From Micromonospora sp. WMMD1082 (GTDB lineage: Bacteria > Actinomycetota > Actinomycetes > Mycobacteriales > Micromonosporaceae), in assembly GCF_029626175.1 (NCBI RefSeq), contig NZ_JARUBM010000002.1:1488001-1552000 (forward strand): DNA of 64,000 bases. Reading direction: 5' to 3'. The translations under genes and the position numbers were made by a program. This document shows positions 48,022 through 64,000 of the stretch, one piece after another (position 1 is the first letter of the stretch; every line of letters begins with the position of its first letter). Below the pieces are notes generated by a model. That model had not been told where the DNA came from. It did no database searches and saw nothing but the letters and a program-made list of their open reading frames with translations.

Positions 48022-49251
48022 ATGGCCGCCATTGCCGATGTACACCTCACGCACGACGCTTCTTCCGCTGCCCGCCTGCCGTCTGGATCCGTCGGTGGGC
48101 AGCTGGCACCTAACGGCCGTGACTTACCCGAGCAACGTTCGGCCGCGGTGCCCGGGTGGTGTGCCGCCGCACCGCCTCCCAATCCGGCGGCACACCACCC
48201 TTTTACGGTGACCAGGTCGCTCAACCGGCCCCGTCCGGAACCGTCGGTGAAGGCGACCGGGCTGCGACTGCTACACGAACCTCCGACCGAGGCCCACCTG
48301 GACAAGCCCAGTGTCGCGCGAATCTACGATTATCTCCTTGGCTTCGCTCACAACTTTCAGGTCGACCGCGACGCCACCGACGCCGCCATCGCCGTCGTCC
48401 CCGGACTTGTTCACGCTGCCCGCGCCAATCGCGCCTTCCTGCGGCGCGCAGTCCAATATGCGCTTGCACAAGGAGTCCGGCAATTCCTTGACCTCGGCGC
48501 CGGCCTGCCCGCGGTTGGCGCTGTGCACACCATTGCCCATGAGGTAGACCCGGACGCTCGCGTGGTGTACGTCGACATCGATCCGATTGTCATCGCTCAC
48601 GCGCGTGCCACCGTACGCGGCCTAATGACAGTCGGGGTCCTCCACGCGGACATTCGCGACACCACGTTCATCCTCGACCATGCCGAGGTCCGCCGGCTCA
48701 TAGGCTTCCACGAACCCGTCGCGATCTTGCTCGCCTCCGTGCTGCACTTCGTCCCTGACGACGTTACCGGCGTGGTCGCCGCGCTGTGTCGGGTAATGGC
48801 TGCAGGGGGCTACATCGTCATCTCCCACGCCTGCAACTCGGAGGACGTATCTATGACGGACGCGATCCGCGAGTTGTACGGCAAGACGTCTACGCCAATC
48901 CACCCTCGCAGCCGGCAGCAGATACGGGGTCTTCTCGCCGGCCTCGACCTAGTTTCCCCCGACCCCCGCTCCCAGGAACCAGACGACCTGGTGCCCGTCA
49001 CCCGCTGGCGCCGGGACCTGGATGAGCTGGCGCTGCCGACAAGTGCAAGCGACAGTTCGCAAGTCGCCGGCCTACTTGCCGCCGTCGGCCACGCACCCCG
49101 CCTCACGACGGCTGTCGCGGTGGGTCACTCGAACCAAGGCGCTCCACCTCAGACGCACGACCTCTGTGTCAACCGGACCTGGGCGCCGCACGCATCGCGA
49201 ATACGGCACGAAGCTAATTGGGACCGCAACGATGACCGTGATACGACCTGA
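48022..49251 (+). CDS. SAM-dependent methyltransferase (DUF574 type)
   Basis: 409 residues. After a poorly conserved, proline-rich 90-residue N-terminus, the family domain begins at KPSVARIYDYLLGFAHNFQVDR. It continues with ANRAFLRRAVQYALAQGVRQ, FLDLGAGLP (SAM loop), VVYVDIDPI and VLHFVPDD. This family is common in actinomycetes near secondary metabolism genes. The ATG at 48022 has GAGGTG upstream. The last 45 residues are an unusual extension. Confidence 0.85.
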   Translation: MAAIADVHLTHDASSAARLPSGSVGGQLAPNGRDLPEQRSAAVPGWCAAAPPPNPAAHHPFTVTRSLNRPRPEPSVKATGLRLLHEPPTEAHLDKPSVARIYDYLLGFAHNFQVDRDATDAAIAVVPGLVHAARANRAFLRRAVQYALAQGVRQFLDLGAGLPAVGAVHTIAHEVDPDARVVYVDIDPIVIAHARATVRGLMTVGVLHADIRDTTFILDHAEVRRLIGFHEPVAILLASVLHFVPDDVTGVVAALCRVMAAGGYIVISHACNSEDVSMTDAIRELYGKTSTPIHPRSRQQIRGLLAGLDLVSPDPRSQEPDDLVPVTRWRRDLDELALPTSASDSSQVAGLLAAVGHAPRLTTAVAVGHSNQGAPPQTHDLCVNRTWAPHASRIRHEANWDRNDDRDTT

Positions 49252-49495: not shown

Positions 49496-50479
49496 TCACA
49501 CCTGCGCCCGGACGGCACTGGCAGGGTGGCCATTTACCAGCACGTGAATCGAGTCGTAGATCTTCATCGAGGACGCCACCAGCGCGTCGGTCAGCACATC
49601 CTCGTTGCGACGGTTAACGAGTATGACGACGCGGCCGACGTCCGGCTTGAGTACCCGCTTGAAGGACTCGGCCATCCTCGCGGCGAAATCCCGGTAGTCA
49701 CCGATGGACTGCTCATGCTCGCCCCACGGGGGGTCCGTGACGATCACATCGACGGTGCCAGTCTTCAGCGACGGCAACCGCAGCGCGTCCTCGCCGAGGA
49801 ACCGCACCTTGCGGGGTATTGGTGGTCGGAAGCTCTGCCGATGGCGGTCGAGTTCGATGTCGTTGTAGATGACAGATCGGGCGGGAGTATGCAGCCGTGC
49901 GCGGACCAGTGCACCACTCCCGGCGAACGGGTCCAAAAACACGTCGTCGGCACGGGGTTCACCGGCCGCGACAAGCAGGGCGGAAAGCTCCGGGGAGAGC
50001 GCTCCCCGGGCTTGGTGAGCGCCACGGCTCGGCAGCCGCTCGGCGAAGTACAAAACCGGCGACTCCCGGCGCCCGATGACCCAGAACTCGAGGCACTGGC
50101 CGCGGGGGGTGAGCCTCAGGCCGCTGGCCTGCAGGACCGCCCGTTCGAGAGCCCGGCGGGCGCCGGGGTCGGGCGAGACCAACTGTCCGTCGATGTGGTA
50201 CATCAGCCGGAATCCCGGGGACTTGGGGCTACGCAGCGATGGCAGGCCGCCGGCCAGTGCCGAGACAGACGGCCCGAGCCCTCGGCGCTTCGTTTCGGCA
50301 TGAACGAGAAATACGTTCTTGGCGTACGGAATGTCGTCGGCAGAGCGGATTCGGTCTCGGGTGTCGAATACCAGAGCACTGTCGTCGACATACCGGACCC
50401 GCATGTCCGCGAAGTCACCGTGAGCCACCTGCTCAACAAGCTCGGAAAGCCCCGCAGGGAATTGAATCAGATAGCGCAC
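49496..50479 (-). CDS. THUMP-type RNA methylase (UPF0020-like)
   Basis: 327 residues. The N-terminal half matches a THUMP-like RNA-binding part (VRYVDDSALVFDTRDRI, FRLMYHIDGQLVSPDP). The C-terminal Rossmann domain has FLDPFAGSGALV at 181-192 and VTDPPWGE at 247-254, typical of RNA guanine-N2 methylases. The GTG at 50479 is only 6 bases after a perfect TATAAT box, so the mRNA is likely leaderless. It is not part of the glycan cluster. Confidence 0.82.
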   Translation of the reverse strand: MRYLIQFPAGLSELVEQVAHGDFADMRVRYVDDSALVFDTRDRIRSADDIPYAKNVFLVHAETKRRGLGPSVSALAGGLPSLRSPKSPGFRLMYHIDGQLVSPDPGARRALERAVLQASGLRLTPRGQCLEFWVIGRRESPVLYFAERLPSRGAHQARGALSPELSALLVAAGEPRADDVFLDPFAGSGALVRARLHTPARSVIYNDIELDRHRQSFRPPIPRKVRFLGEDALRLPSLKTGTVDVIVTDPPWGEHEQSIGDYRDFAARMAESFKRVLKPDVGRVVILVNRRNEDVLTDALVASSMKIYDSIHVLVNGHPASAVRAQV

Positions 50480-50927: not shown

Positions 50928-51725
50928 TTGCGGTTCAAAGTAGTAATGGCGGGCAGGGATTGTTTCCGCTTCGTCCCTCGCAGCCTGGAATCCGTGGCGG
51001 CGCAGCTCGATTCAGCTGTCGACGTCTGCGTAATCGACGACGCCTCGTTGGACGAGCGCCAGCCGGAGTTCATGCAGCGGTTCTGCCGAAATCATGCATG
51101 GACATTCATTCGGAACGAGGACCATCGGGGATCGCTGTATAACCACGTCGCCGCGGTCGACGCGTTGTCGCCGGAGCCAGAGGACGTTATCGTCTCCGTC
51201 GATGCCGATGACAGGCTCAGCGGCCCGGACGCTCTCGGCAAGGTACGTGCATACTATGACCACTTTCAGCCGCTTCTCACCTACGGCAGCTATGTGCCAG
51301 ACCCGGATGACTGGCGGGTCATGCCGGCGAAGCACCTGCCGGACGAGGTTATCGTCACCAACGCATACCGGGCGTTCTGTGCACGTGACACTGACGAGGA
51401 TCCGATCTGGTTCAACCACCTGCGGACGCTGAAGCATAGTCTGTTCGCCCGGCTTGACCCAGCCATCGACTTCATGCATTCCGACGGCTCATGGTTCAAG
51501 ACCTGCTACGACCTGGCTATCACTATCCCCGCCCTGGAAATGGCATCCGGCCGCCACCTGATGCTCCCCGAGGTGCTGTATATCTACACGCGTGACAATC
51601 CGAGCAGCGACTGCTACATCCACACGGACGCCATCGAACGTGACAAGGCCCGGATCTTCAGCCTTCAGCCGAAGGAACCATTGTTCGAGATCGTGGTTCC
51701 TCCCCAGATCGAGCGGCTGCCATGA
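50928..51725 (+). CDS. Family 2-type glycosyltransferase
   Basis: 265 residues from a TTG at 50928, with GAGGAG five to six bases upstream (a GTG at 50895 is the alternative). The GT-A fold is seen in VDVCVIDDASLDERQPEF, NHVAAVDALS and the metal site VSVDADDRL. The middle (LFARLDPAIDFMHSDGSWFK) and the C-terminus are typical of short family 2 enzymes. It should transfer a sugar in the cytoplasm. Its 3' end overlaps the convergent phosphatase-fold gene by 61 bases. Confidence 0.75.
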   Translation: MRFKVVMAGRDCFRFVPRSLESVAAQLDSAVDVCVIDDASLDERQPEFMQRFCRNHAWTFIRNEDHRGSLYNHVAAVDALSPEPEDVIVSVDADDRLSGPDALGKVRAYYDHFQPLLTYGSYVPDPDDWRVMPAKHLPDEVIVTNAYRAFCARDTDEDPIWFNHLRTLKHSLFARLDPAIDFMHSDGSWFKTCYDLAITIPALEMASGRHLMLPEVLYIYTRDNPSSDCYIHTDAIERDKARIFSLQPKEPLFEIVVPPQIERLP

Positions 51726-52498
51726 TGGCCACCCGCAGGGCGGCTCCCTACCTCGATTGTGACTCGGACCGGAAGGTGGTCGGAGCCCCGCACCGGCACG
51801 ACTGTGCTGTCCTTGGCGCAGACCTCGGTGCCGCCCAGCACATGGTCGAGTTGGGCCACTGGGCGCTTGGTCGGCCAGGTGCGGCCCCGGACCAGTGGAC
51901 GGTACGGCCGTGCGAGGTAGACGGTTGGCCGACACATGTTCAGGTCGCCGGCGATCACCGTAGGCAAACCGTCATCCCGAAGTACACGAACGAGGCGTCG
52001 AAGCTGCCGCGGGCCGTGTATGAGCCGGTGCGTGAGATGCACATTGACCAGCCGAGCGGTAACGCGCTCGTCCACGACGAGGTCGATGACTTGCGCAGCT
52101 CGTTGGCCCATGTCGCGCGGGGCGACCCCGAGCCACACCGGTTCTTGGACCACGAGCGGAATCCGGCTCAGCACCGCAAGTCCCCAGGCTCCCGGCTCAT
52201 CTGCCCTTCGGTCGGTGACGACACCGAGGTCGTACAGGCTCGTGTCGGCGAGCACGTCGAGCTCGGTGATATGCGGATAGCCGCACGTCACCGCGGCCTG
52301 CAGCGCGGCACTGTCGCCGCCGCGGGGTCGCCAGTTCTCTTGCACCAGGATGACCTCGGCTGCCAGGGCCTCCAAGACGGAAGGCATGGAGTAGAAGGCC
52401 CCGAGTGCATCCCGCCCGCAATGCGCATTGAGGGAGGCAAGGCGGAAAGCAACAGGTTCGGCTCCCGTCGAGCGGCTTCCCCTGGACGCGTACGTCAT
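51665..52498 (-). CDS. Endonuclease/exonuclease/phosphatase-fold protein
   Basis: 277 residues from the ATG at 52498, with GAGGTGGGGG upstream (an ATG at 52528 is possible). The family motifs are present in order: LNAHCG (N24), LVQEN (E54), VNVHLTH, IAGDLNM, LDHVLG and GSDHLPV. This fold includes sugar and lipid phosphatases as well as nucleases. In this setting a phosphatase acting on a sugar phosphate is plausible but not shown. It is the only minus-strand gene inside the operon region and is divergent from the first PhyH gene. Confidence 0.8.
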   Translation of the reverse strand: MTYASRGSRSTGAEPVAFRLASLNAHCGRDALGAFYSMPSVLEALAAEVILVQENWRPRGGDSAALQAAVTCGYPHITELDVLADTSLYDLGVVTDRRADEPGAWGLAVLSRIPLVVQEPVWLGVAPRDMGQRAAQVIDLVVDERVTARLVNVHLTHRLIHGPRQLRRLVRVLRDDGLPTVIAGDLNMCRPTVYLARPYRPLVRGRTWPTKRPVAQLDHVLGGTEVCAKDSTVVPVRGSDHLPVRVTIEVGSRPAGGHHGSRSIWGGTTISNNGSFG

Positions 52499-52526
52499 AT
52501 CAGCCCCCACCTCGGATGGACGAAGC

Positions 52527-53318
52527 ATGACTGAACAGCCCGGGAAACCAATGCTGCCACCCGCCACTGATGATCCCAAAGAGGCTAGCACGCACCTCAT
52601 CGAGCACGGCGTCTGCCGGCTCGAAGGCGCACTGCCCTCGGCAGACCTGGACGTTCTCCGTCGTGAACTGCGAGTGGCGGCGACGGCGGACGCGAAAGCC
52701 GAGCGGTCCTACCTCTACGGTGCAGGCAGCAACCAACGGATCTGGACGTTGTTCAACCGTGGCGAATGCTTCCTGGAACTTCTCGAAAACGGCGCGACGC
52801 TGGAGGCGGTCCATGCGGTACTCGGCCGGGATGCGCTCGTCTCCAACTTGAGCGCGAATATCACAGGCCCGGGCGGGGCGGCCATGGCTCCGCACTGGGA
52901 TCAAGACTGGGCCGAACGTCCCTGGCCTCATGCCTTCGTCGCACACGTCATCTGGATGATCGACGACTTCACGGTGGAGAACGGCGCGACGCTCGTCGCG
53001 CCAGGCAGCCATCTCATGGATACGCCGCCACAGGGTGACTGCATGGTGCCCGCTACGGGATCAGCCGGCACCGCAATGATCATCGACGGCCGCGTCTGGC
53101 ACGGCACGGGGGCGAACGTCACCGCCGATGAGCACCGCACCGGAGTCCTCGCCTACTACTGCCGTCCGTATATCCGGCAGCAGGAGAACATGGCATTGAG
53201 CTTGTCACCAGAGATACGCGCCAGTCTCTCTCCCGCGCGCCGCAAGCTCCTCGGGCTGGAATTCTGGGAATACCTCAACATGGTTGGCGGCCCGCCGCAA
53301 GAACTATCGCGGTTCTGA
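52527..53318 (+). CDS. Phytanoyl-CoA dioxygenase family oxygenase 1
   Basis: 263 residues. The iron-binding triad is intact: H123-W-D125 (PHWDQDW) and H192 (RVWHGTG), with R204 to bind 2-oxoglutarate (EHRTGVLAYY). GATLVAPGSHL is also typical. It should hydroxylate, or otherwise oxidise, a small substrate or sugar unit using Fe(II) and 2-oxoglutarate. It is the first gene of a nine-gene operon; PIG-L follows after 5 bases. Confidence 0.88.
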   Translation: MTEQPGKPMLPPATDDPKEASTHLIEHGVCRLEGALPSADLDVLRRELRVAATADAKAERSYLYGAGSNQRIWTLFNRGECFLELLENGATLEAVHAVLGRDALVSNLSANITGPGGAAMAPHWDQDWAERPWPHAFVAHVIWMIDDFTVENGATLVAPGSHLMDTPPQGDCMVPATGSAGTAMIIDGRVWHGTGANVTADEHRTGVLAYYCRPYIRQQENMALSLSPEIRASLSPARRKLLGLEFWEYLNMVGGPPQELSRF

Positions 53319-53323
53319 ACGGC

Positions 53324-54097
53324 ATGTCGTCCGTCCTCTCCTTGCGGCGAGGAGCGACCGTCATGGTCCTCTCACCGCATCTCGACGACGCGGTGCTGTC
53401 CTGCGGAGCCCTGATAGCGGCTCTGGACTCGGTCATCGTGACCACCGTATTCAACGGGCGGCCGGTCCCACCGATAACTGAGTCGGCCGCACGGTTCCAC
53501 GCGCGGTGCGGCCATACCGACAACAACGCCATGACGGAGCGGGAGAAGGAGGACGACCGAGCACTGAGTCTCGTCGGTGCTAGCAAGACGCGCCTCGGAC
53601 TGCCCGAGGCACTGTACCGCAAGGACCAGTACGGCGCTCCGCTGTACGACTCGGACACCGCGATCTTTGTCGACAGCATCTCCGAATCCGGCCAGGAACT
53701 GACCATGGTCCTAGACGCCGTCCACAAGTGCGTCGAGGCGGCAGATCCCGATCTGGTGCTTGCGCCGCTCGGCATCGGCGGCCATGTCGACCACCTGCTG
53801 GTGTCTATGGCGGCCCGGCGGCTCGACCGGCGCGTCCTTTACTACGAGGACGTTCCTTACGTTCTGTACGACCGGTGCAAGGGCTGGGAAGACGACTTTC
53901 AGGGTCAGCACGCCTACCTGTATCCAAGTACGTCGGACTCCTGGTCAGCCAAAACCAGGGCCATCGAAGAGTACGCATCGCAGCAGCAGGTGCTTTGGTA
54001 CGAGCCTGACGCATGGCGGGAACAACTTGGCGCATACGCCCGCTCGATCGGCTGCGGCCACTATGCGGAGAGGCTTTGGAGCCTTGATGGCCAATGA
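53324..54097 (+). CDS. PIG-L family N-acetyl sugar deacetylase
   Basis: 257 residues. The zinc motif SPHLDDAVLSCG (H19, D21, D22) and the second ligand loop GIGGHVDHLL (H154, H157) are complete. Relatives deacetylate N-acetylglucosaminyl compounds in mycothiol, aminoglycoside and glycopeptide pathways. An N-acetyl sugar made by a cluster glycosyltransferase is the likely substrate (inference). It ends 11 bases inside the next gene. Confidence 0.9.
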   Translation: MSSVLSLRRGATVMVLSPHLDDAVLSCGALIAALDSVIVTTVFNGRPVPPITESAARFHARCGHTDNNAMTEREKEDDRALSLVGASKTRLGLPEALYRKDQYGAPLYDSDTAIFVDSISESGQELTMVLDAVHKCVEAADPDLVLAPLGIGGHVDHLLVSMAARRLDRRVLYYEDVPYVLYDRCKGWEDDFQGQHAYLYPSTSDSWSAKTRAIEEYASQQQVLWYEPDAWREQLGAYARSIGCGHYAERLWSLDGQ

Positions 54098-55262
54098 ACC
54101 CCTTCGGATCACCCACCTGATCCGAGCGAAGCCTCCTGGCGAAGTCGGTGGCGCCGACGCTCACCTCCTGGATCTGGCGTCGGCGCAAGCTACGGCCGGC
54201 CACGGTGTTCGCGTGGTCTTTCTGGGTCCGGCTCACCTCAGCATGGCGCTACGCGACCGTGGAGTACCGGTGATCGACATCCACTCCATGTCGATGATCG
54301 CGTGGCTACGCGCCACCTGGACCGCGGTGCGCGCCGACCCGCCCGACGTGGTGCATTCGCATGGCTACCGCGCTGACTTTGTGGCCGTGGCCCTGCGGCT
54401 TCTCCGGCCCTCATCGGCGCGGTGGACCCTGGCCATGACCGTCCACGGCTTCATCCGGACGCCCCACAGCCTACGGGTGATGAGCCGGCTGAATGAACAC
54501 GCACTGCGGTACGCCGACGTCGTGATCGCGGTCAGCTCGCCCGAGACTCAGCGCCTGACCGCAATGCTCCGGCGGAAGGTGAGCTTCATACCCAACGGAG
54601 TTGCACACACCGAGCTCCTTCCTCGCCACGAGGCGCGTCGACGGCTCGGTGCCAACCCTGCGCGACGGGCCGTCGCGTTCGTCGGACGCTTGTCCCCCGA
54701 GAAGCGCCCCGACCTTTTCGTCGCTATGGCGGCCCTCGTCGCCCGGGACCGGCCGGAGGCTGAGTTCATCGTTGTCGGCAGCGGAGACCGGTATGACCAA
54801 ACCGTGCGGCTGGCCGCGGCCGTTCCGAATGTGCCTATCTCCTTCACCGGGCTGGTGCCCGACGTCGCATCCCTTATGAAGTGTTTTGACGTGCTCGTGT
54901 GCCCGTCCGACACGGAAGGAACTCCGAGAGTCGTGATCGAAGCCATGTCTGCCGGCGTGCCCGTCGTCGCTTCCCGAGTGGGTGGGTTACCGGACCTCAT
55001 CGTCGATGGGAGGACGGGGTTCCTCGTCCCGCCGGATTCCGCAGCGGCCCTCGCCGAGCGGGTCAGCCGGCTACTCGGCGACGAGTCGCTCTCACGCGAG
55101 ATGAGCCATCGTGCGCGCACCCATGCGAAGCGGACGCTCTCCGTGGCGGCGATGGCAAGCCGTGTCACCACCGCCTACCGATCCGGTCGCGGTGACACCG
55201 CGCCAGAATCCAACGTTGGTGCAGCGGCCATGTCGGGCGACCCGGATGGGTGCCAGGCATGA
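54087..55262 (+). CDS. Glycosyltransferase family 4
   Basis: 391 residues of the GT-B fold. The acceptor half has PGEVGGADAHLLDLASAQAT and VVHSHGYRADF. The donor half has AFVGRLSPEKRPDLFVAMAA, FTGLVPDVASLMKCFDVLV and the E-x7-E region DTEGTPRVVIEAMSAGVPVV. It retains configuration at the sugar. GT4 followed by PIG-L is the MshA-MshB logic of N-acetylglucosamine transfer then deacetylation, here in reverse gene order. It overlaps both neighbours. Confidence 0.9.
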   Translation: MANEPLRITHLIRAKPPGEVGGADAHLLDLASAQATAGHGVRVVFLGPAHLSMALRDRGVPVIDIHSMSMIAWLRATWTAVRADPPDVVHSHGYRADFVAVALRLLRPSSARWTLAMTVHGFIRTPHSLRVMSRLNEHALRYADVVIAVSSPETQRLTAMLRRKVSFIPNGVAHTELLPRHEARRRLGANPARRAVAFVGRLSPEKRPDLFVAMAALVARDRPEAEFIVVGSGDRYDQTVRLAAAVPNVPISFTGLVPDVASLMKCFDVLVCPSDTEGTPRVVIEAMSAGVPVVASRVGGLPDLIVDGRTGFLVPPDSAAALAERVSRLLGDESLSREMSHRARTHAKRTLSVAAMASRVTTAYRSGRGDTAPESNVGAAAMSGDPDGCQA

Positions 55263-56155
55263 CCAATTACGCAGGCGCCATCCGGATCGGCTGGTTAGCG
55301 GAGCAGCGACTCCCCTGGGCGGATCTACTCGAAGTGACCCAACAGGTCGAACGCCTTGGTTTCGACAGCGTTTGGCTGTCCGACCACCTGACCGACGAGC
55401 GGGGCAGATGGTTCCTGGACCCGTGGACGGCCCTCGGCGCCGTGTTGAGCTGTGTTCCACGTATCGAAGCGGGGACGTTGGTGGCCTCCAGCAGTCTCCG
55501 TCCACCTCTGCTGACCGCCCAAATGGCGAGGACTCTTTCCGGCATCGGACCTGATCGCTTCGTGCTGGGGCTCGGAACCGGAGGTTCTCAGGAGGAGCAC
55601 GAACGCGCCGGTGTCGCGTTCGGCGACCTCGATCGGAGGGTGGCGGCGCTTCGGGAGACATGCATGCTTGTCCGGGACAGCGTAGCTACCAGCTCACCCT
55701 GGTCCAGCACCCGCGACGGAGCGGCAGTTGCGCACGCGCCCATTCCACTCCTTGTCGGGGGCGGCGGATCGGCCGTCCTGAGGGTCGCTGCTCAGTACGC
55801 CGATCGCTGGACTATTTGGGGCACCCCGCGGCACCTTGCGGAGAAGGGTGCGACGCTGTCCGCCTTCGCCCGTGACGCTGGCCGGCGCCCCGAAGATATT
55901 GCGAGGGGCGCGATAGTCATGATCCTGCCCCACCATCTACCGCTTCGTGAGCACTCGGAGCCTTGGCCGGCAGAGTTACGTGGCGGCGAGACAGAGATCC
56001 GCCGCCAGTTGGCTGAGTACGCGGCGGCGGGCGTCGGCGAGATCGTCGTATGCGACTTCGGAGTCCAGCCGGAGCATCGGCTAGCAGCACTGGAATGGTT
56101 CGCATCCGTCGTCGACAGCGACCGTCGGTTGGCTAGGCCGGGGGTCCCCTCGTGA
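55259..56155 (+). CDS. LLM-class flavin-dependent oxidoreductase
   Basis: 298 residues of the luciferase-like monooxygenase fold: LGFDSVWLSDHLTDERGRWF, TLVASSSLRPPLLTAQMART and PDRFVLGLGTGGSQEEHERA. It may use FMN or F420; F420 is common in actinobacteria. The ATG at 55259 overlaps the GT4 stop (ATGA). It likely oxidises or reduces a pathway intermediate. Confidence 0.85.
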   Translation: MTNYAGAIRIGWLAEQRLPWADLLEVTQQVERLGFDSVWLSDHLTDERGRWFLDPWTALGAVLSCVPRIEAGTLVASSSLRPPLLTAQMARTLSGIGPDRFVLGLGTGGSQEEHERAGVAFGDLDRRVAALRETCMLVRDSVATSSPWSSTRDGAAVAHAPIPLLVGGGGSAVLRVAAQYADRWTIWGTPRHLAEKGATLSAFARDAGRRPEDIARGAIVMILPHHLPLREHSEPWPAELRGGETEIRRQLAEYAAAGVGEIVVCDFGVQPEHRLAALEWFASVVDSDRRLARPGVPS

Positions 56156-57138
56156 CGCTGCCGGGCGCCCGATCGACGCAGGCCACCCCCCGTGCGGCCG
56201 TCGGCATATTCGCCCACAACGAGGAGGCAACGATCCGGTACGTGGTCGAGGGCTTCCTCGGACAGCGGATGCGCGCGGCGTCCTTGTGCGAGGTCGTCGT
56301 CGTCTGCTGCGGATGCACGGACGACACCGTCGACATGGTCAAGGATGTCGCCGCGAGCGACGCGCGGGTCCGCCTTTTGGTCCGGCCGCGCCGTGAAGGC
56401 AAGGTAGCGGCAATCAACGAGTTCCTAAGCGTCGTCGACGCCGATGTCCTGGTGCTCTCCAGCGGTGATGTAGTGCCAGCCGACGATGCTATTGATCGGC
56501 TGGTGTCCCCGTTGGCCGAGGACGGCCAATGCATGATGACGGGGCCGCGGGTCGTGATGGCCAAGACGTGGATCCCGCGCCGCATCGTCGACCACCTGCA
56601 CGATGTTCTGTGGGCTCTGCACCATGCCGTATCGCTACACAACCCCAAACTGGGTGAGATCGTCGCGATCCGGAGTGAGGTACTACAACGGCACCTGCCA
56701 CCTGGAATCCACTGCGACGAGGCGCTCATGGAATCTATCGTCGTTGACCAGGGCGGCAGCCTCGGGTACGTAGCTGATGCCCTGGTGTACAACTTCGCCC
56801 CGACCAACGTCCGGGAGCTATACCGGCAGCGTCGACGAGTTGCGGCTCAGCATGTCGCCCTGCGACGTCTGCGCGGATACCGCCCGTCGACCACCCAGCC
56901 ACGGCTCATCTTCTTGGCTCTTCGCAGCTTGCCGTTGCGGCGGTTTCCGCTGGTGCTTGTGCTCGCTGGGTTTGAGACAGCCGCCAGGATTCACGGCTAC
57001 CTCGATGCCCGCCGCGGGCGGTCCTATCAGTTATGGCGGATCGCCCGTCCGCCGTCACGGATGGACCACCTCGACGTGGGATCGGGCACGTACCGCAACG
57101 AGACATGCGCTCATGCCGACGATGAGAGGTGCGCATGA
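56152..57138 (+). CDS. Family 2-type glycosyltransferase with C-terminal hydrophobic part
   Basis: 328 residues from a GTG that overlaps the LLM stop (GTGA). VGIFAHNEEATIRYVVEGFL and VVVVCCGCTDDTVDMVKDVA are the nucleotide-binding start. VLVLSSGDVVPADDAIDRLV holds the metal site. A later LRRFPLVLVLAGFETAARIH stretch could bind the membrane. It should add a sugar, or act on a lipid carrier. It overlaps the epimerase gene by 4 bases. Confidence 0.82.
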   Translation: MTLPGARSTQATPRAAVGIFAHNEEATIRYVVEGFLGQRMRAASLCEVVVVCCGCTDDTVDMVKDVAASDARVRLLVRPRREGKVAAINEFLSVVDADVLVLSSGDVVPADDAIDRLVSPLAEDGQCMMTGPRVVMAKTWIPRRIVDHLHDVLWALHHAVSLHNPKLGEIVAIRSEVLQRHLPPGIHCDEALMESIVVDQGGSLGYVADALVYNFAPTNVRELYRQRRRVAAQHVALRRLRGYRPSTTQPRLIFLALRSLPLRRFPLVLVLAGFETAARIHGYLDARRGRSYQLWRIARPPSRMDHLDVGSGTYRNETCAHADDERCA

Positions 57139-58148
57139 ACGTGTGGATCACCGGAGGCGCCGGGTACATCGGGTCGACGATTGCCCACATGTGCCGCGCG
57201 TACGGCATCACCCCAGTCGTTATCGACGATCTGAGTTCCGGACACGCCGAGGTCACCGCGCACTTGCCGTTCTACCTCGGCGACTTCGCCGACCTGCAGC
57301 TGCTGCGGCGGATCGTCACCGATCATGGCCGGCCGCGAGTCGTAGTGCACGCGGCGGGCTTGATCTCCGCTGGTGCATCTATGACGGAGCCCATGGCGTA
57401 CTACCAAACCAACGTCACGAAGACGCTGCGGCTATGCGAATTCCTCATCGAGATAGGCTGCCCACGGCTGGTTGTCGAGTCCTCGGCAGCGGTATACGGC
57501 GACTGCACCGTACCGATCGTCGATGAGCAGGCCGCGGCGCGCCCCGTCTCGCCGTATGCCTACTCGAAGTACGCCCTCGAGCGCATGCTCTGCGATGTCG
57601 CGGCGGTTCACCAACTACAAGTCGTGTGCTTGCGCCTGTTCAATGTCGTTGGCTTCGGTGACGGTCTGCCGCGCCACAGGTCCTCCCGGGACGTCCTGTC
57701 TCAATTGCAGAACGCTGACAAGCACGGCGAGCCGTTCAAGATCTACGGCACCGACTGGCCCACCGTCGACGGGACCGCCCTACGTGACTTCGTGCATGTG
57801 GAAGACGTCGCCCGCGCCCACATGTCCCTGATCACCGCAGCGGATTGGCGGGTCCACGGCACCTTTGACGTTCTCAATCTCGCAACCGGCGTTGGCACAA
57901 CGGTCAGGCAGCTCCTCGGCCTGTATCAGTCTCTGCGCACCGCCCCAGTGCGGCTGGTTGAGGCCGGCCGGCGGCCCGGCGACATCGCCGGGTTCGTCGG
58001 CGATCCAGCACGCGCCCGCCGCCTTCTGGGGTGGTCACCGACGCTGGCGCTATCCGACGCGATGTCGCAACACCGCCGGGTTCAAAGCGGCGGCGATGCG
58101 GCTCACCTGCGGGCGTCCGTGGCATCAACAGTCGACTCGAAGAGGTAG
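57135..58148 (+). CDS. UDP-glucose 4-epimerase-like (GalE family)
   Basis: 337 residues. NAD-binding GGAGYIGS at 7-14, catalytic Ser pair ESSAAVYG (about 116-122) and Y141-x3-K145 (YAYSKY). GTALRDFVHVEDVARAH and NLATGVGTTVRQLL are GalE hallmarks. It probably makes the UDP-sugar donor for the cluster transferases; the exact sugar is unknown. The ATG at 57135 has GAGAGG upstream. Confidence 0.9.
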   Translation: MNVWITGGAGYIGSTIAHMCRAYGITPVVIDDLSSGHAEVTAHLPFYLGDFADLQLLRRIVTDHGRPRVVVHAAGLISAGASMTEPMAYYQTNVTKTLRLCEFLIEIGCPRLVVESSAAVYGDCTVPIVDEQAAARPVSPYAYSKYALERMLCDVAAVHQLQVVCLRLFNVVGFGDGLPRHRSSRDVLSQLQNADKHGEPFKIYGTDWPTVDGTALRDFVHVEDVARAHMSLITAADWRVHGTFDVLNLATGVGTTVRQLLGLYQSLRTAPVRLVEAGRRPGDIAGFVGDPARARRLLGWSPTLALSDAMSQHRRVQSGGDAAHLRASVASTVDSKR

Positions 58149-58159
58149 GAAGGACCCCC

Positions 58160-59011
58160 GTGCGGCTCCACATCTTTGGCATCGAGGTCAACGCCGTTAT
58201 GCAGTGCAATCTCGCGTGCGCGGGGTGCAGCCACGCGAGTCCGGTCGCGACGGCCTGGAGCGCCGATCCGCGGACGGTGCTACGCGACCTGACCGCAGTG
58301 GCGTCGGTCGCGGACGTCGACGAGGTACGCGTCGTCGGCGGCGAACCGCTACTCCACCCGTCCTTCACCGAAGTCCTGCGGGCTATCAAGAGCTCCGGCA
58401 TCGGCGGCACAGTGCGTGTCATCACAAATGGCACCCGCTTGCACCGCGTTGGGCTGGAGTGGGTCGAGCTCGTCGATGAGGTGTACGTGTCGGTCTATCC
58501 CGGTGCGGTCATCTCTGCCCACGCGGTGCGGGACCTTCGAGTCCGCGCTGGCGAGGCCGGAACGCGTGTGGCGGTCAATCGGTTCACCAACTTCCGTCCC
58601 GTAGTCCCGGTGAGACCGCTGACGCCGGACCAGGTCGCGGCGGTCTTCGAGACCTGCCAGGTCGCCCATTCGTGGAGTTGCCACACCATCCAGGAAGGCT
58701 ACGTCTATCTGTGTCCGATGACGGTGCCCGGGCCGTCTAGCCGGCAACCGCAGGCCAGCCGGTGCGCGATCGAACCGCTGGAGACCTTGGCCGAGCGCCT
58801 AGATGCGTTTCTCAATGCCACGACGCCGCTGCCCGAGTGCCGCTCGTGCCTCGGGACGGTTGGGCAGCCGACACCGCACCGGCAGGCCAACCGCAGGACC
58901 TGGCTGCCGCTGTCTCGGTCTGACATCGATTGGGAACACGTCGAGCGGGTCCGTGCGGACCCTTGGGCGGACAACGGCTGCGTTGACAACACTGTGCCGC
59001 TTGGCCTCTGA
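58160..59011 (+). CDS. Radical SAM enzyme
   Basis: 283 residues from a GTG with GGAAGG upstream. The cluster motif C16-NLA-C20-AG-C23 and VVGGEPLLHP are clear. The C-terminal third has further Cys (TCQVAHSWSCHTIQEGYVYL, then CPM, RCAI, CRSC) that may bind an extra Fe-S cluster like SPASM or twitch domains. It may perform a radical step on a sugar, amine or peptide, such as epimerisation or C-C formation. It lies 11 bases after the epimerase gene. Confidence 0.88.
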   Translation: MRLHIFGIEVNAVMQCNLACAGCSHASPVATAWSADPRTVLRDLTAVASVADVDEVRVVGGEPLLHPSFTEVLRAIKSSGIGGTVRVITNGTRLHRVGLEWVELVDEVYVSVYPGAVISAHAVRDLRVRAGEAGTRVAVNRFTNFRPVVPVRPLTPDQVAAVFETCQVAHSWSCHTIQEGYVYLCPMTVPGPSSRQPQASRCAIEPLETLAERLDAFLNATTPLPECRSCLGTVGQPTPHRQANRRTWLPLSRSDIDWEHVERVRADPWADNGCVDNTVPLGL

Positions 59012-59044
59012 CAACGCTCACCGTTGACCGACACGGAGGTTGGC

Positions 59045-60937
59045 ATGTACTTAGGCATCAACTACAACGGTATGCACGACAGCTCCGTCTGCCTGGTGGG
59101 CACTGACGGAATCGTGCGGTACGCCGTCAGCGAGGAACGCCTCTCGCGTGTCAAGCAGGATGGAAGATTCCCCAACCGTGCCTTAGCGAGCATCGACCTC
59201 CGGCAGATCCGGGCAATCGGTGTGCCGTACTTAGCGGCCAGCGGGCCTGCCGTCCCGAGCAACGAGGTCTTCCGGGACGTCATGGCGCCGCTACCCGGTT
59301 ACCAGGTTGGAGAGTTCCCCGCAGTGTGGCGTGACCGGCTGACCGCACTAGGCCGGCCGCTTGAGTTTTTCGACCACCACGACATGCACGCCTTTTCGGC
59401 CTACGTGCTTGCCGGGTACCCCGAAGCGATCGTTCTGACGTGTGATAACGGCGCGTACACGTGCCCGGTCACCGCCGCTGTGTTCCACGTCCGTGCCGGG
59501 GCGACCGAACGCCTCGCGGCTGCCGCTTACGGGGAACTGGACACGCTAGCCTCGCTGTACTCCGACGTCACCGCGCTACTCGGATTCACCCCTTGCAAGC
59601 ATGAGGGCAAGGTCACCGGCTTGGCCGCACACGGGATCTCGCGGCCAGACTGCCGCCGGGAGGTATGGCGGGTGCACCGGCAGATGCGCACGGAGCACCC
59701 CAGGGCGTATGGATGGATCGGCTTCTGCGACGAGGACGTCCCGCCATTCTATGAGCCCAACCTGCACCAGATCGCGCAATACCGAAGACAGCTTCCCTAC
59801 ACCGACGCCGACATCGCCCGAGCCGCACAGGACGTCTTGGAGGAAAAGGTCGTCACGATCGCCCGATGGATCAAGCAGCAATGTGGTGCAGACTTGCCAC
59901 TTCTGCTCTCTGGCGGCGTCTTTGCTAATGTCAAGGTCAACCTGGAGATCGCTCGCCTCGGATTCCGGGCTGTGTTCGTTTGCCCGCCGATGGGCGACGA
60001 GGGCCTGTCGATCGGGGCGGCCCGGGCGGTGTTTGACCGGTACGAAGGAGGAACTCGCGGTCGGAACTCCGTACCGTCGCGCCAAAGGCCGCGCCGAGAC
60101 ACCGTGGCTCTTGGGCCAGACCCATGTAGCGACGCGTCAACGGCTCTGGAGGAGATCGGCCTTGTGTACCACCGCCTCGGCCGCTCGGCTGCGAGCCGTG
60201 CACTGAGCGACGCCCTCGTCTCAGGGCAGTTGCTGGCGGTGGTCCGCGGCAGGCAGGAATTTGGACCACGGGCACTGGGCCTACGATCCGTCCTCGCCGG
60301 CGCCGGCGACGTGACGCTCAACGATCGGCTTAACGCAAAGCTGCGACGTACCGACTTCATGCCCTTCGCGCCGATCCTTCGGGCCGAGCGCTTCGCCGAT
60401 GTCTTCGACCTGGACGCGGTACCTACCGATGTCGAGGACTGTGCACGATTCATGACGATCTGCCTTCCGGTGCAGTCGTGGGTGGCAGAAAAGTGTCCGG
60501 CCGTGGTGCATGTTGACGGCACGGCCCGACCGCAAGTTCTCCGGCGTGAGGACGACCCATTCCTACATGACGTGCTCGGTAAGTACGAGGAGAGCACCGG
60601 CCTCCCCATGCTGGTGAACACTAGTTTTAACATTCACGACGAGCCTATGGTCTCAAGCGCAGCCGATGCCGTCGCGGCGTTCCTGCTGGCCGAACTCGAC
60701 CTCTTACTCCTCGACGACTGCCTGGTGAGGTTGGCGGAGAACTCCCAAGCCAAGAATCTGGCCCGGCTGCTCCGCCGGCAGGACGGCGCCGTCGCCAAAG
60801 CACGGCACGCCGCGCTCAACCGCAGCTTCGGCCGGCAGATCTTCGAAGGACCCGGCCGATTCAACGATTACGCACCGAGCACCGCTGATAGCTCCGCGCC
60901 GGCAACGCGCACCGCCCCGGCTGCGACTCCCGCATGA
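59045..60937 (+). CDS. O-carbamoyltransferase (NodU/CmcH family)
   Basis: 630 residues from the ATG at 59045, with GGAGG upstream; a TTG at 59024 is less likely. The N-terminal YrdC/Kae1-like half has YLGINYNGMHDSSVCLVG, the metal site HHDMHAFSAY (H111, H115) and LLLSGGVFANVKVN. The C-terminal half has RQEFGPRALGLRSVLA, FMPFAPIL and PMLVNTSFNIHDEPMV. It should add a carbamoyl group from carbamoyl phosphate and ATP to a hydroxyl. The C-terminal 60 residues are an extra low-complexity tail. Confidence 0.92.
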   Translation: MYLGINYNGMHDSSVCLVGTDGIVRYAVSEERLSRVKQDGRFPNRALASIDLRQIRAIGVPYLAASGPAVPSNEVFRDVMAPLPGYQVGEFPAVWRDRLTALGRPLEFFDHHDMHAFSAYVLAGYPEAIVLTCDNGAYTCPVTAAVFHVRAGATERLAAAAYGELDTLASLYSDVTALLGFTPCKHEGKVTGLAAHGISRPDCRREVWRVHRQMRTEHPRAYGWIGFCDEDVPPFYEPNLHQIAQYRRQLPYTDADIARAAQDVLEEKVVTIARWIKQQCGADLPLLLSGGVFANVKVNLEIARLGFRAVFVCPPMGDEGLSIGAARAVFDRYEGGTRGRNSVPSRQRPRRDTVALGPDPCSDASTALEEIGLVYHRLGRSAASRALSDALVSGQLLAVVRGRQEFGPRALGLRSVLAGAGDVTLNDRLNAKLRRTDFMPFAPILRAERFADVFDLDAVPTDVEDCARFMTICLPVQSWVAEKCPAVVHVDGTARPQVLRREDDPFLHDVLGKYEESTGLPMLVNTSFNIHDEPMVSSAADAVAAFLLAELDLLLLDDCLVRLAENSQAKNLARLLRRQDGAVAKARHAALNRSFGRQIFEGPGRFNDYAPSTADSSAPATRTAPAATPA

Positions 60938-60982
60938 TCTCTTGTTCCGCCCGTCGTCACCACTCACGATCGGAGACCACTC

Positions 60983-61861
60983 GTGCTGACCGCAGAACAG
61001 ATGGACACGTACCGAAGTCACGGCTGGCTCATTATCCCGGACTTCTTCTCGCCTGACCTGGAACAGATCGTCGCCGATCTCCTGCAGATCTTCCCAGCCC
61101 CACACGACTATTGGGCCGATCCGAGTCGGTATCCCGAGCTGCAAGGTGGGCAATTCGACTCGGTGCGAACTATTCCGACCGGTGTGCCGCTGCTGGACGG
61201 GTTGCCCTTCGACCACCGGGTACGGGACATCGCCGTGCAGGTGACCGAATCGAACGATCTTCGGCTCATGCGCGGGGGCTACCAATCAAAGTTCACTGCA
61301 GCCGCAGACTTTGAACAAATCCTCCACCTGGACTACACCAACCACACGCTGGTCGTCCTGCCGGACGAGGAACGCTCCGCCATGGTCGGCTTCTTCGCAT
61401 ACTTCACTGACGTCACCACCGACACCGGCCCGACCATGGCAGTGTCGCGGACGCACTGCGGTCAGTTACGCATCACGGACACACACCTCGAACGCGACCG
61501 ATGGCCTCAGATCTACGAACACGAGGAACCACTCTTGTGCAAGGCGGGATCCCTGCTCGTATACGACTACCGAACACTGCACCGCGGCAGTGCCCTGCAC
61601 GGACAGTCCGCAAATCGGCTGACGTTGAGCTTCGCGTACGGGGTGGCGGCACCCTGGCACGGTTTCTACTCCTGGCCGAACCGAGCGGACGAGCCGGCCG
61701 TCCGGCAACTCATCGCCGCTCTCACACCGGACGAGCGGGTTCTGCTCGGCTTTCCGGCGGTCGGGAACCCGTACTGGACGCCCGCGACCATTGAGGCGGT
61801 CGGCCGGCGCTATCCAGGGTTCGATGGCACGCCGTACCGGCAGGCCCTTGGCGCGAGCTGA
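60983..61861 (+). CDS. Phytanoyl-CoA dioxygenase family oxygenase 2
   Basis: 292 residues from a GTG with GGAGA upstream. H115-L-D117 (ILHLDYTNH) and H200 (RTLHRG) form the iron site, and NRLTLSFAYG provides the 2-oxoglutarate arginine (about 212). It has an ordinary PhyH length and is likely active. It is the last gene of the plus-strand operon, 45 bases after the carbamoyltransferase, and is convergent with the next glycosyltransferase. Confidence 0.87.
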   Translation: MLTAEQMDTYRSHGWLIIPDFFSPDLEQIVADLLQIFPAPHDYWADPSRYPELQGGQFDSVRTIPTGVPLLDGLPFDHRVRDIAVQVTESNDLRLMRGGYQSKFTAAADFEQILHLDYTNHTLVVLPDEERSAMVGFFAYFTDVTTDTGPTMAVSRTHCGQLRITDTHLERDRWPQIYEHEEPLLCKAGSLLVYDYRTLHRGSALHGQSANRLTLSFAYGVAAPWHGFYSWPNRADEPAVRQLIAALTPDERVLLGFPAVGNPYWTPATIEAVGRRYPGFDGTPYRQALGAS

Positions 61862-61874
61862 CAGCACCATGGGG

Positions 61875-63302
61875 TCACGAACCGGCCGACACGTTCCGGT
61901 GATTGAGAACCTGATGCAGGAAGCGGTCCATCTCTGCCGCACGCTGCAGGTAGTGGTGCGGTTCGCCACGCTTGCCATTCTCCGCCGGGCACCCGTCGGC
62001 GCGTCGGCGACGTGCCAGTTGGACAAAGGACGCGAAGGCGTCGGCGATGGCCTCCTGACTGCGGTTGTCGGCGATCAGCACGTCCGGCAACCCAGCCACC
62101 AGATTGGATGCCGCTCCAGCGGGATCCGCCACGATGAGGATCGGACGGTCGGTGCCAAGGTACTCGTAAACCTTGGTAGGGAGGCGATCGCGGTCGCTAT
62201 CGAGAGCCGGCAGCACGGCGAACAGCCCGTCAGCGCGGCGCGTCGCCGCCAACGCGTCGGAGTAGCTCCCCGCGGCGGTCAGCCGGACCAGGTGACTGAG
62301 CCCCCAGCCGTCGAGTTCCTGGACCAGGTGCTCGGGGAACCCCGAGCCCATGAACTCAAGTTCGATGCCGTCGAGTGCCTCGGATCTGCGGCTCAGTACC
62401 AGCCGCAAGGCGCTGATCAGCTGGTGCGGTGTATAGAAGTGGTAGAAGAAGCCGGTGTGCAACAACCTCAGCACCGGGGTGGTGGCATCGGAGCCCCGTT
62501 CTGGAGCAGTGTCCTCGATATCCACTCCGTTCCGAATGTGGGCGATTGGCTTGCCTGCTGTCTGACGCGGAAACGCCGCTGCCAAGCGATCCACGTGCGC
62601 CTCGCCGTTGACAATGATGGCGCCCGCCGAGGCTTGCAGCAGCGTCGCTTCCAGCCGGCGGGTGAGGCGGTATCGCGCACGGGTCGCCACATCGCTACGC
62701 GGTCGGCCGTCCGCGTCGGACGTCCAGAAGGCGCCCACCGTCCACGGATCGCGATACTCGACCACGTAGGGGATCCCCCGCAGACGGTTCAACAACCAGC
62801 CCACCGTGCCAGACGCCGCAGGCGGCAACGACACGACCGCTACGTCGATCGGACTGGTGCGGTGGGCTCGAAGAGCGGCGCGCAGGGCAGGAAGCACCCA
62901 GCCGATCTTCGAAGACTCGATCTCTCGTTCCTCATACGCAAACCCGCGGTCCAACGACGTTCGGCCGGTTTCCCCGCGCCGGGCGAACCGCTCCGAAGCC
63001 AAGCGCAGGACACGGACCGTGCCGCCGACCACCTTGAGGAGCCATCCCAGCCGCCATTCCCGAACTCGGAGCACTGTTGCCACACCGTCAACGGACAGTC
63101 GCGGGTCGACTGGACCGGCACCGTGGACGGTGAGCACGGTGACGTCCCAGCCCAAGTGCCGCAGGTACTTCGCCATCTTTACTGGACGCGGAACACCACC
63201 TCCAGTCATCGGCGGAAAGAAATAGTTGACGAGCAGGACGTGTCTCGATACTCCCTGCTTTCGATCGGGACCAGGCTGCGAATCTTCTCGATTGGAGTTC
63301 AC
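61875..63302 (-). CDS. Glycosyltransferase family 4-like
   Basis: 475 residues, GT-B fold: HVLLVNYFFPPMTGGGVPRP at the start, VVEYRDPWTVGAFWT, IAHIRNGVDIED and LPTKVYEYLGTDRPILIVAD. The last segment is the donor-site region in this branch of GT4. It is on the minus strand, convergent with the operon and divergent from PhyH-3. The GTG at 63302 has no clear ribosome-binding site and lies 7 bases after a TATTAC box, so it may be leaderless. Confidence 0.82.
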   Translation of the reverse strand: MNSNREDSQPGPDRKQGVSRHVLLVNYFFPPMTGGGVPRPVKMAKYLRHLGWDVTVLTVHGAGPVDPRLSVDGVATVLRVREWRLGWLLKVVGGTVRVLRLASERFARRGETGRTSLDRGFAYEEREIESSKIGWVLPALRAALRAHRTSPIDVAVVSLPPAASGTVGWLLNRLRGIPYVVEYRDPWTVGAFWTSDADGRPRSDVATRARYRLTRRLEATLLQASAGAIIVNGEAHVDRLAAAFPRQTAGKPIAHIRNGVDIEDTAPERGSDATTPVLRLLHTGFFYHFYTPHQLISALRLVLSRRSEALDGIELEFMGSGFPEHLVQELDGWGLSHLVRLTAAGSYSDALAATRRADGLFAVLPALDSDRDRLPTKVYEYLGTDRPILIVADPAGAASNLVAGLPDVLIADNRSQEAIADAFASFVQLARRRRADGCPAENGKRGEPHHYLQRAAEMDRFLHQVLNHRNVSAGS

Positions 63303-63383
63303 TAGGACAGTAATACACTACTCGGGCAACGATGTCGACATCCTTTATCAACCCCCAACGATCAGGGAGACGGAGTCCTAGAC
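63303..63383. other. Short divergent promoter region
   Basis: This 81-base gap holds a minus-strand TATTAC box close to the GTG at 63302 and the plus-strand ribosome-binding site GGAG eight bases before the ATG at 63384. Confidence 0.4.
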
Positions 63384-64000
63384 ATGCGCGAGGAAGAACG
63401 CTATCTTTTCGACCTGAACGGCTACATCGTTGTGCGATCGGTCTTGACCGAGCCGGAACTGGATGCACTACGCGCCGAAGTGCGAGGCGCTGGGGTGGAG
63501 GATGCATTGACCACCCAAAAGTACCTGCATGCCGGATTCCCACGCGACTACTATGATGATGCCGAGTGGACGGGCAAGGACGGTTACCGCTATTCCTCAG
63601 AATCATTCGTTCTCGACTGGGGACCCGCTGTCCGGTCGCTGGTGGCGCATCCCAAGCTGCTGAAGTACTTGTCCGCCCTGGTCGGGCCTGACTACCGGCT
63701 CGATCACGCGTATGGCGTGTTCTCCCGGGGCCGGACCACTTCGCATGCGCTGCACAACGGCGCGACTCCCTTCGACCCTACGCAGATGTACGTCTGCCGC
63801 GACGGGAGGATCCACAATTCCATGGTGGTCGCGCAGTTCGCGCTGACGCAGGTCGGCCCGAATGACGGTGGATTCTGCTGCCTCCCAGGCAGTCATAAAT
63901 CGAATTTCCCACTCCCGTCGGAAATGCCAGCCCTGGAGGAATTGGACGACGAATGGAGCGCACACGTGCGGCGCGTACCGATGAATCCCGGTGACGTGCT
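63384..64000 (+). CDS. Phytanoyl-CoA dioxygenase family protein 3 (cut by window end)
   Basis: 205 residues are present before the window ends. The family fold is seen in LFDLNGYIVVRSVLTEPELD and GGFCCLPGSHKSNF. Where an iron-binding H-x-D is expected the sequence reads HALHNGATPF (H124-N-G126). H-x-G is seen in some Fe/2-oxoglutarate halogenases, but also in non-catalytic or differently organised PhyH members. The distal His and the Arg lie beyond the window. It is divergent from the last glycosyltransferase. Confidence 0.8.
   Translation, partial: MREEERYLFDLNGYIVVRSVLTEPELDALRAEVRGAGVEDALTTQKYLHAGFPRDYYDDAEWTGKDGYRYSSESFVLDWGPAVRSLVAHPKLLKYLSALVGPDYRLDHAYGVFSRGRTTSHALHNGATPFDPTQMYVCRDGRIHNSMVVAQFALTQVGPNDGGFCCLPGSHKSNFPLPSEMPALEELDDEWSAHVRRVPMNPGDV

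Follow-up and report, generated by a model that had tools for sequence, protein, structure and literature searches.

A 17-gene cluster of Micromonospora sp. WMMD1082 with the enzyme families expected for a sugar-derived specialised metabolite

A 64,000-nucleotide stretch of DNA from Micromonospora sp. WMMD1082 (contig NZ_JARUBM010000002.1, positions 1,488,001-1,552,000, of a two-contig 7.44-Mb genome), referred to as a whole as the window, ends within a cluster of 17 genes that is unmatched in the collections used, MIBiG and antiSMASH not being among them. The cluster is real, and its product is likely to be a sugar-derived specialised metabolite. We lean towards a horizontally acquired locus that makes a small oligosaccharide or pseudo-oligosaccharide composed of sugars only. 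The cluster extends from about 49.5 to 67.9 kb, i.e., contig coordinates 1,537,499-1,555,860, where positions above 64000 carry the window numbering on into the right flank, which was fetched. Gene starts are those chosen by our own gene caller, whose codon model was retrained on the stretch itself because the first model, built from the typical genes of the region, gave the cluster low scores. Domains were assigned with Pfam and NCBIfam profiles, the Pfam scan covering the window from 44 kb rightward. A Methyltransf_19 protein (48247-49251, Pfam) was excluded, by judgement, from the count of 17 genes.

The gene families (Table 1) support the initial annotation, which had described a sugar-rich cluster predicting a deacetylated, oxidised and carbamoylated glycoside that matched no known pathway. 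All the enzymes it had named, i.e., four glycosyltransferases (GTs), three PhyH-family proteins, a PIG-L deacetylase, a luciferase-like oxidoreductase, a GalE-like epimerase, a radical S-adenosylmethionine (SAM) enzyme, a carbamoyltransferase and a phosphatase-fold protein, are recognised by Pfam or NCBIfam. The operon it had proposed is also present, as nine plus-strand genes (52551-61861) that encode, in order, PhyH1, PIG-L, GT4a, the luciferase-like oxidoreductase, GT2b, the GalE-like protein, the radical SAM enzyme, the carbamoyltransferase and PhyH2, with junctions of 44, -11, -4, -4, -4, 11, 33 and 45 bp, so that four of eight overlap. The cluster lies where it had been placed but is larger: on the right, PhyH3, ADH-Gfo, ADH-like and GT4c are encoded by abutting or overlapping genes that continue past the window to 67860, and on the left a methyltransferase gene adjoins the reported start.

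The composition of the region is that of an island, the GC content being 0.649 at 48-68 kb vs 0.711 at 1-40 kb and 0.725 at 102-119 kb. The right end of the cluster, at 67.9 kb, is followed by a type III restriction-modification pair (68034-72250 on the minus strand, L003:9034-13250) with a GC content of 0.58 and, farther right, by a DDE transposase and a D12 DNA methyltransferase; a search of positions 39001-119000 found no tRNA. The cluster region thus looks like an acquired, mosaic island.

It had been suggested that scaffold genes might lie outside the window, yet extension past 64 kb and a search of the genome found no polyketide synthase, non-ribosomal peptide synthetase or cyclitol synthase nearby. 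In the genome, the ketosynthase match closest to the cluster ends at 1,274,482, about 263 kb away, and the closest condensation-domain match starts at 2,506,834, about 951 kb away. PF01761 has two matches genome-wide, an AroB-type gene and a glycerol-1-phosphate-dehydrogenase-like gene, both far from the cluster; the latter, a DHQ-like gene at 2.63 Mb, was rejected as a cyclitol synthase on account of that resemblance. A scaffold synthase near the cluster was therefore rejected, and it is unlikely that a separate synthase makes an aglycone. When the 17 proteins and the Methyltransf_19 protein were scanned for hydropathy, no multi-span membrane protein was detected; four of these 18 have one 19-residue window above 1.6 (maximum 2.01), which we read as buried core. 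Given that neither such synthases nor multi-span membrane proteins were found, soluble enzymes probably assemble the product from primary sugars, perhaps on an inositol base.

The radical SAM enzyme belongs to the HygY family, and its closest solved protein is PDB 7wzv, which we take to be the spectinomycin-pathway dehydrogenase SpeY; the literature matches listed include no paper on 7wzv or the SpeY enzyme. HygY is represented here by the radical SAM protein of locus L024 from S. hygroscopicus NBRC 13472, with residues numbered from its likely start. This locus is taken as the hygromycin B locus because its oxygenase matches PDB 4xcb, titled HygX from Streptomyces hygroscopicus, at 582 bits. 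The window protein is 35% identical to HygY and 37% to 7wzv, while HygY and 7wzv share 46%, so that it appears to form a branch separate from these two. The three proteins have in common Cys16/20/23 of the radical SAM motif and four C-terminal cysteines (Cys166/185/227/230). They differ at a fifth position, where Cys174 of the window protein aligns with HygY Cys183 (in WRCHT) and with Ser203 in 7wzv; among the 120 homologues listed (the best of 157 proteins), 118 have Cys at this position, one Ala and one Thr. HygY Cys183 reportedly donates the hydrogen during epimerisation, and its mutation is said to lead to dehydrogenation. From the alignment of Cys174 with this residue, the window enzyme is likely to act as a sugar epimerase and not as a dehydrogenase, a prediction that lends itself to direct testing. 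In the alphaproteobacterial metagenome-assembled genome (MAG) RI_41, a homologue with 41% identity is encoded beside inositol-1-phosphate synthase, Gfo/Idh, GHMP kinase, DegT, two GTs (GT2, GT4), GalE-like and PhyH proteins (locus L013), a gene content that suggests that such relatives serve sugar-chain or aminocyclitol pathways. L013 itself resembles a proteobacterial aminocyclitol locus, and its PhyH protein is HygX-like.

The resemblance to orthosomycin-type chemistry noted in the initial annotation holds as far as similarity goes, since HygX is the best PDB sequence match of PhyH3, HxD is absent from both, and eight loci described below share the radical SAM, PhyH, GT4 and GalE types. It could be proposed on this basis that PhyH3, like HygX, closes an orthoester between two sugars, in a chain devoid of 2-deoxystreptamine. 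However, in a 106-row tree, the long branch that holds HygX together with the L013 and L034 proteins is separate from PhyH3, a placement that carries a long-branch warning, and PhyH3 was rejected as a HygX orthologue despite the top PDB match. Moreover, SptF and other oxygenases equal HygX in Z as matches of PhyH3, and the motifs concerned are widespread: of the 120 PhyH3 homologues listed (the best of 493), which include Paenibacillus and Poribacteria proteins, 118 carry LHxG and all carry E[AS]xxHG. Both an orthosomycin pathway and an orthoester in the product are accordingly judged quite unlikely. These homologues outline a broad PhyH subfamily in which LHxG replaces HxD and an E...H pair is invariant, as in HygX, and PhyH3 lets one ask whether this HxG-type subfamily, HygX included, oxidises sugars more widely.

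An inositol-based aminocyclitol pseudo-oligosaccharide, in which the GTs and PIG-L would produce glucosaminyl-inositol for later extension, would account for the top NCBIfam match of ADH-Gfo (inositol 2-dehydrogenase, 108 bits for a cut-off of 355), for the two inositol-1-phosphate synthase genes of the genome, even though these lie far away at 2.72 and 4.45 Mb, and for the pairing in L013 of the related radical SAM enzyme with the inositol-1-phosphate synthase set. Yet the cluster encodes neither an aminotransferase nor a cyclitol synthase, and GT4a falls under the MshA cut-off, with other GT4 models matching better, which leaves this route unlikely. A locus for a cell-surface or exported polysaccharide, instead of a small molecule, would fit the five GTs, several of which have polysaccharide enzymes as top NCBIfam matches, all under cut-off. 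Against it speak the hydropathy scan, the lack of any polymerase, flippase, ABC exporter or lipid-linked priming transferase among the Pfam matches to the 17 genes, and the carbamoyltransferase and PIG-L, which are closest to antibiotic tailoring enzymes; we regard it as very improbable.

In the sugar-only pathway that we favour, the GalE-like epimerase would supply UDP-galactose, and up to five GTs would build a chain from common nucleotide sugars, perhaps started on inositol. PIG-L would take off an N-acetyl group, and the radical SAM enzyme would invert one carbinol carbon, with the hydrogen given back by Cys174 in the manner proposed for HygY. Hydroxylation or oxidative cyclisation of the chain may fall to the three 2-oxoglutarate oxygenases, and adjustment of oxidation states to the ADH-Gfo, ADH-like and luciferase-like enzymes; the carbamoyltransferase would add an O-carbamoyl group. 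Finally, rRNA methylation by the neighbouring EmtA/TRM11-like methyltransferase may give self-protection, in which case the product would be a ribosome-binding antibiotic. Taken to its full extent, this proposal would define a new class of ribosome-binding carbamoylated oligosaccharide antibiotics without deoxystreptamine or aromatic cap, epimerised by a radical SAM enzyme, cyclised by 2-oxoglutarate oxygenases, protected by an EmtA-like enzyme and found mostly in actinobacteria not yet named, a speculation that is rather unlikely to hold as a whole. Sugar-only antibiotics are few. Here a carbamoyltransferase and a possible rRNA methyltransferase occur together with three 2-oxoglutarate oxygenases and a HygY-family radical SAM enzyme whose nearest homologues are environmental sequences, a combination that points to an unexplored compound family.

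EmtA, the 23S rRNA methyltransferase for evernimicin resistance, is the first-ranked NCBIfam model for the methyltransferase, ahead of TIGR01177 (43 bits). Homologues of the protein carry the TRM11 family name, and the motif [ND]PP[WYF] is conserved in all 120 listed. The gene was rejected as a housekeeping gene of the genus, since it occurs in one of 61 sampled genus genomes, its own, with no match in the other 60 at E 1e-10. Three observations favour a link with the product: at a Streptomyces locus (L113 of G905), a homologue immediately follows a gene for a carbamoyltransferase (31% identity to the window's); in Streptomyces sp. NPDC004237, homologues of PhyH3 (49%) and of the methyltransferase (46%) are carried by one 53,834-bp contig; and one further such pair has both members on 49,093-bp contigs. 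The L113 row of genes also holds another radical SAM enzyme, DegT and a nucleoside phosphorylase. As far as the parts of the source seen here indicate, the evernimicin and avilamycin clusters contain rRNA methyltransferases and the spectinomycin cluster a proposed RNA methyltransferase (PMC6804068). Self-resistance by rRNA methylation is plausible and is offered tentatively.

Several observations weigh against the proposed pathway. The methyltransferase does not reach the curated EmtA cut-off (50 of 625 bits); among 354 family genomes it is present in nine, the other eight all belonging to one genus (g11), which we guess to be Glycomyces because a homologue is named from Glycomyces luteolus; and among 199 Streptomyces it is present in four, three of these loci having no cluster homologues nearby. 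On these three grounds, the methyltransferase may be unrelated to the product. In addition, no transporter or regulator was recognised among the 17 genes, no clear role can be assigned to the Exo_endo_phos and ADH-like proteins, and no characterised protein appears to be a close relative, the radical SAM enzyme being about 35% identical to HygY and PhyH3 27-30% to HygX-type proteins.

The logic of the cluster is like that of oligosaccharide and aminocyclitol antibiotic pathways, but, by the tests tried, it appears to be neither of the hygromycin type nor equipped with a HygX orthologue. A contig scan confirmed 125 radical SAM relatives, of which 80 were kept; together with three family loci, these gave 83 loci that were compared by tblastn with 18 proteins. 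Eight of them combine radical SAM-, PhyH3-, GT4a- and GalE-like genes, i.e., L024 and L017, L019, L021, L023, L028, L030 and L035, the last seven being further hygromycin-B-type loci in Streptomyces and Streptoalloteichus. Shared with the window cluster are the HygY-family radical SAM enzyme (35-39%), an HxG-type PhyH (27-30%), a GT4 (32-38%) and a GalE-like short-chain dehydrogenase/reductase (29-38%). In contrast to these loci, the window cluster lacks an aminotransferase and the 2-deoxy-scyllo-inosose synthase of 2-deoxystreptamine pathways, which was not found with PF01761 genome-wide, and adds the carbamoyltransferase, PIG-L, two more PhyH proteins, the luciferase-like oxidoreductase and ADH-Gfo. 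The GdmN, NovN, TobZ and Dbv21 systems, which provide the best PDB matches of the carbamoyltransferase (the first three) and of PIG-L (the last), act on substrates with other cores, and no such core is encoded in the window cluster. The avilamycin and everninomicin pathways, in the portions of the reviews consulted, comprise the radical SAM enzyme AviX12, the oxygenases AviO1-3, the UDP-glucose 4-epimerase-like AviQ1-3, GTs and rRNA methyltransferases (PMC8234114, PMC6804068). The same enzyme types recur here, a likeness drawn from these reviews and not sequence by sequence, whereas the window cluster and its immediate surroundings yielded neither a polyketide synthase nor an ABC transporter. 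A search of the open-access literature found no paper with the gene set of the cluster.

No second complete cluster was found in the family, class, Streptomyces or plasmid searches. The radical SAM matches listed include 23 at 57% identity or at least that besides the window's own, with named isolates from 48% down. Among the matches listed for PhyH3, one protein is 95% identical to it, that of a Micromonosporaceae MAG 80%, that of a Streptosporangiaceae MAG 74% and that of Streptomyces sp. NPDC057521 66%. Contigs of 16,505, 32,297 and 106,887 bp appear in both lists, compared by eye, so that it is very probable that the two genes move as a pair, although equal contig size is not proof; contigs of 1,045 and 1,948 bp also recur and are too short to trust. 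Outside its own genome, the radical SAM enzyme has relatives in three of 353 family genomes (33-38% identity) and two of 393 class genomes (29-37%), and PhyH3 in three of 392 Streptomyces genomes (32-38%). Across six of these eight neighbourhoods, the sole second cluster match is a weak ADH-Gfo match in one; the seventh, in G743 (S. abikoensis by identity), corresponds to the hygromycin-type locus L035, and the eighth (G030) was compared only across its short locus. Plasmids yielded one radical SAM relative at 36% and two PhyH relatives at 27-28%, and no methyltransferase homologue.

Table 1. The 17 genes of the cluster, in window numbering.
Product	Position	Strand	Evidence and remarks
EmtA/TRM11-like (UPF0020) N-methyltransferase, DPPW motif	49496..50428	-	Pfam UPF0020 55 bits; NCBIfam EmtA 50 bits
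GT2a, glycosyltransferase family 2	50946..51725	+	Pfam PF00535 33 bits
Endonuclease/exonuclease/phosphatase-fold (Exo_endo_phos) protein	51665..52498	-	Pfam PF03372 53 bits; weak partial VanJ match 21 bits
PhyH1, 2-oxoglutarate oxygenase, HWD motif	52551..53318	+	Pfam PF05721; HxD at 115; PDB matches EasH, SptF, kanamycin B dioxygenase
PIG-L N-deacetylase	53363..54097	+	Pfam PF02585; top PDB match glycopeptide pseudoaglycone deacetylase Dbv21, 79 bits
GT4a glycosyltransferase	54087..55262	+	Pfam PF00534/PF13439; under cut-off for every NCBIfam equivalog shown (BshA 101, MshA 99 bits)
Luciferase-like (F420-type) oxidoreductase	55259..56155	+	Pfam PF00296 128 bits; F420 subfamilies under cut-off
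GT2b glycosyltransferase	56152..57138	+	Pfam PF00535 63 bits
GalE-like UDP-glucose 4-epimerase (short-chain dehydrogenase/reductase)	57135..58148	+	NCBIfam galE 240 bits (cut-off 262); PDB UDP-glucose 4-epimerase 162 bits
Twitch radical SAM enzyme, HygY family	58160..59011	+	PDB 7wzv 197 bits; CX3CX2C; Cys166/174/185/227/230
O-carbamoyltransferase	59045..60937	+	Pfam PF02543 + PF16861; PDB GdmN 188, novobiocin carbamoyltransferase 182, TobZ 148 bits
PhyH2, 2-oxoglutarate oxygenase, HLD motif	60983..61861	+	Pfam PF05721; PDB 8xp6 '2OG-Fe(II) oxygenase' 120 bits
GT4b glycosyltransferase	61875..63302	-	Pfam PF13579/PF13439; weak C-terminal half
PhyH3, HxG-type 2-oxoglutarate oxygenase	63384..64217 (past window edge)	+	PDB HygX best, E 7e-14
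ADH+Gfo/Idh/MocA protein (ADH-Gfo), 673 aa	64218-66239		Flank
ADH-like protein, 183 aa	66236-66787		Flank
GT4c, fifth glycosyltransferase	66784-67860		Flank

For PhyH2, the single-sequence structure model was unusable (pLDDT, a per-residue model confidence, of 36.5), and no literature was found on its PDB match 8xp6. The Exo_endo_phos gene and GT2a overlap by 61 bp on opposite strands. Farther along the right flank, at 84062-90446 (L004:5062-11446), lie class I lanthipeptide-type genes, i.e., lantibiotic dehydratase matches across two adjacent reading frames, a LanC-like gene and a Lant_dehydr_C+PCMT fusion.

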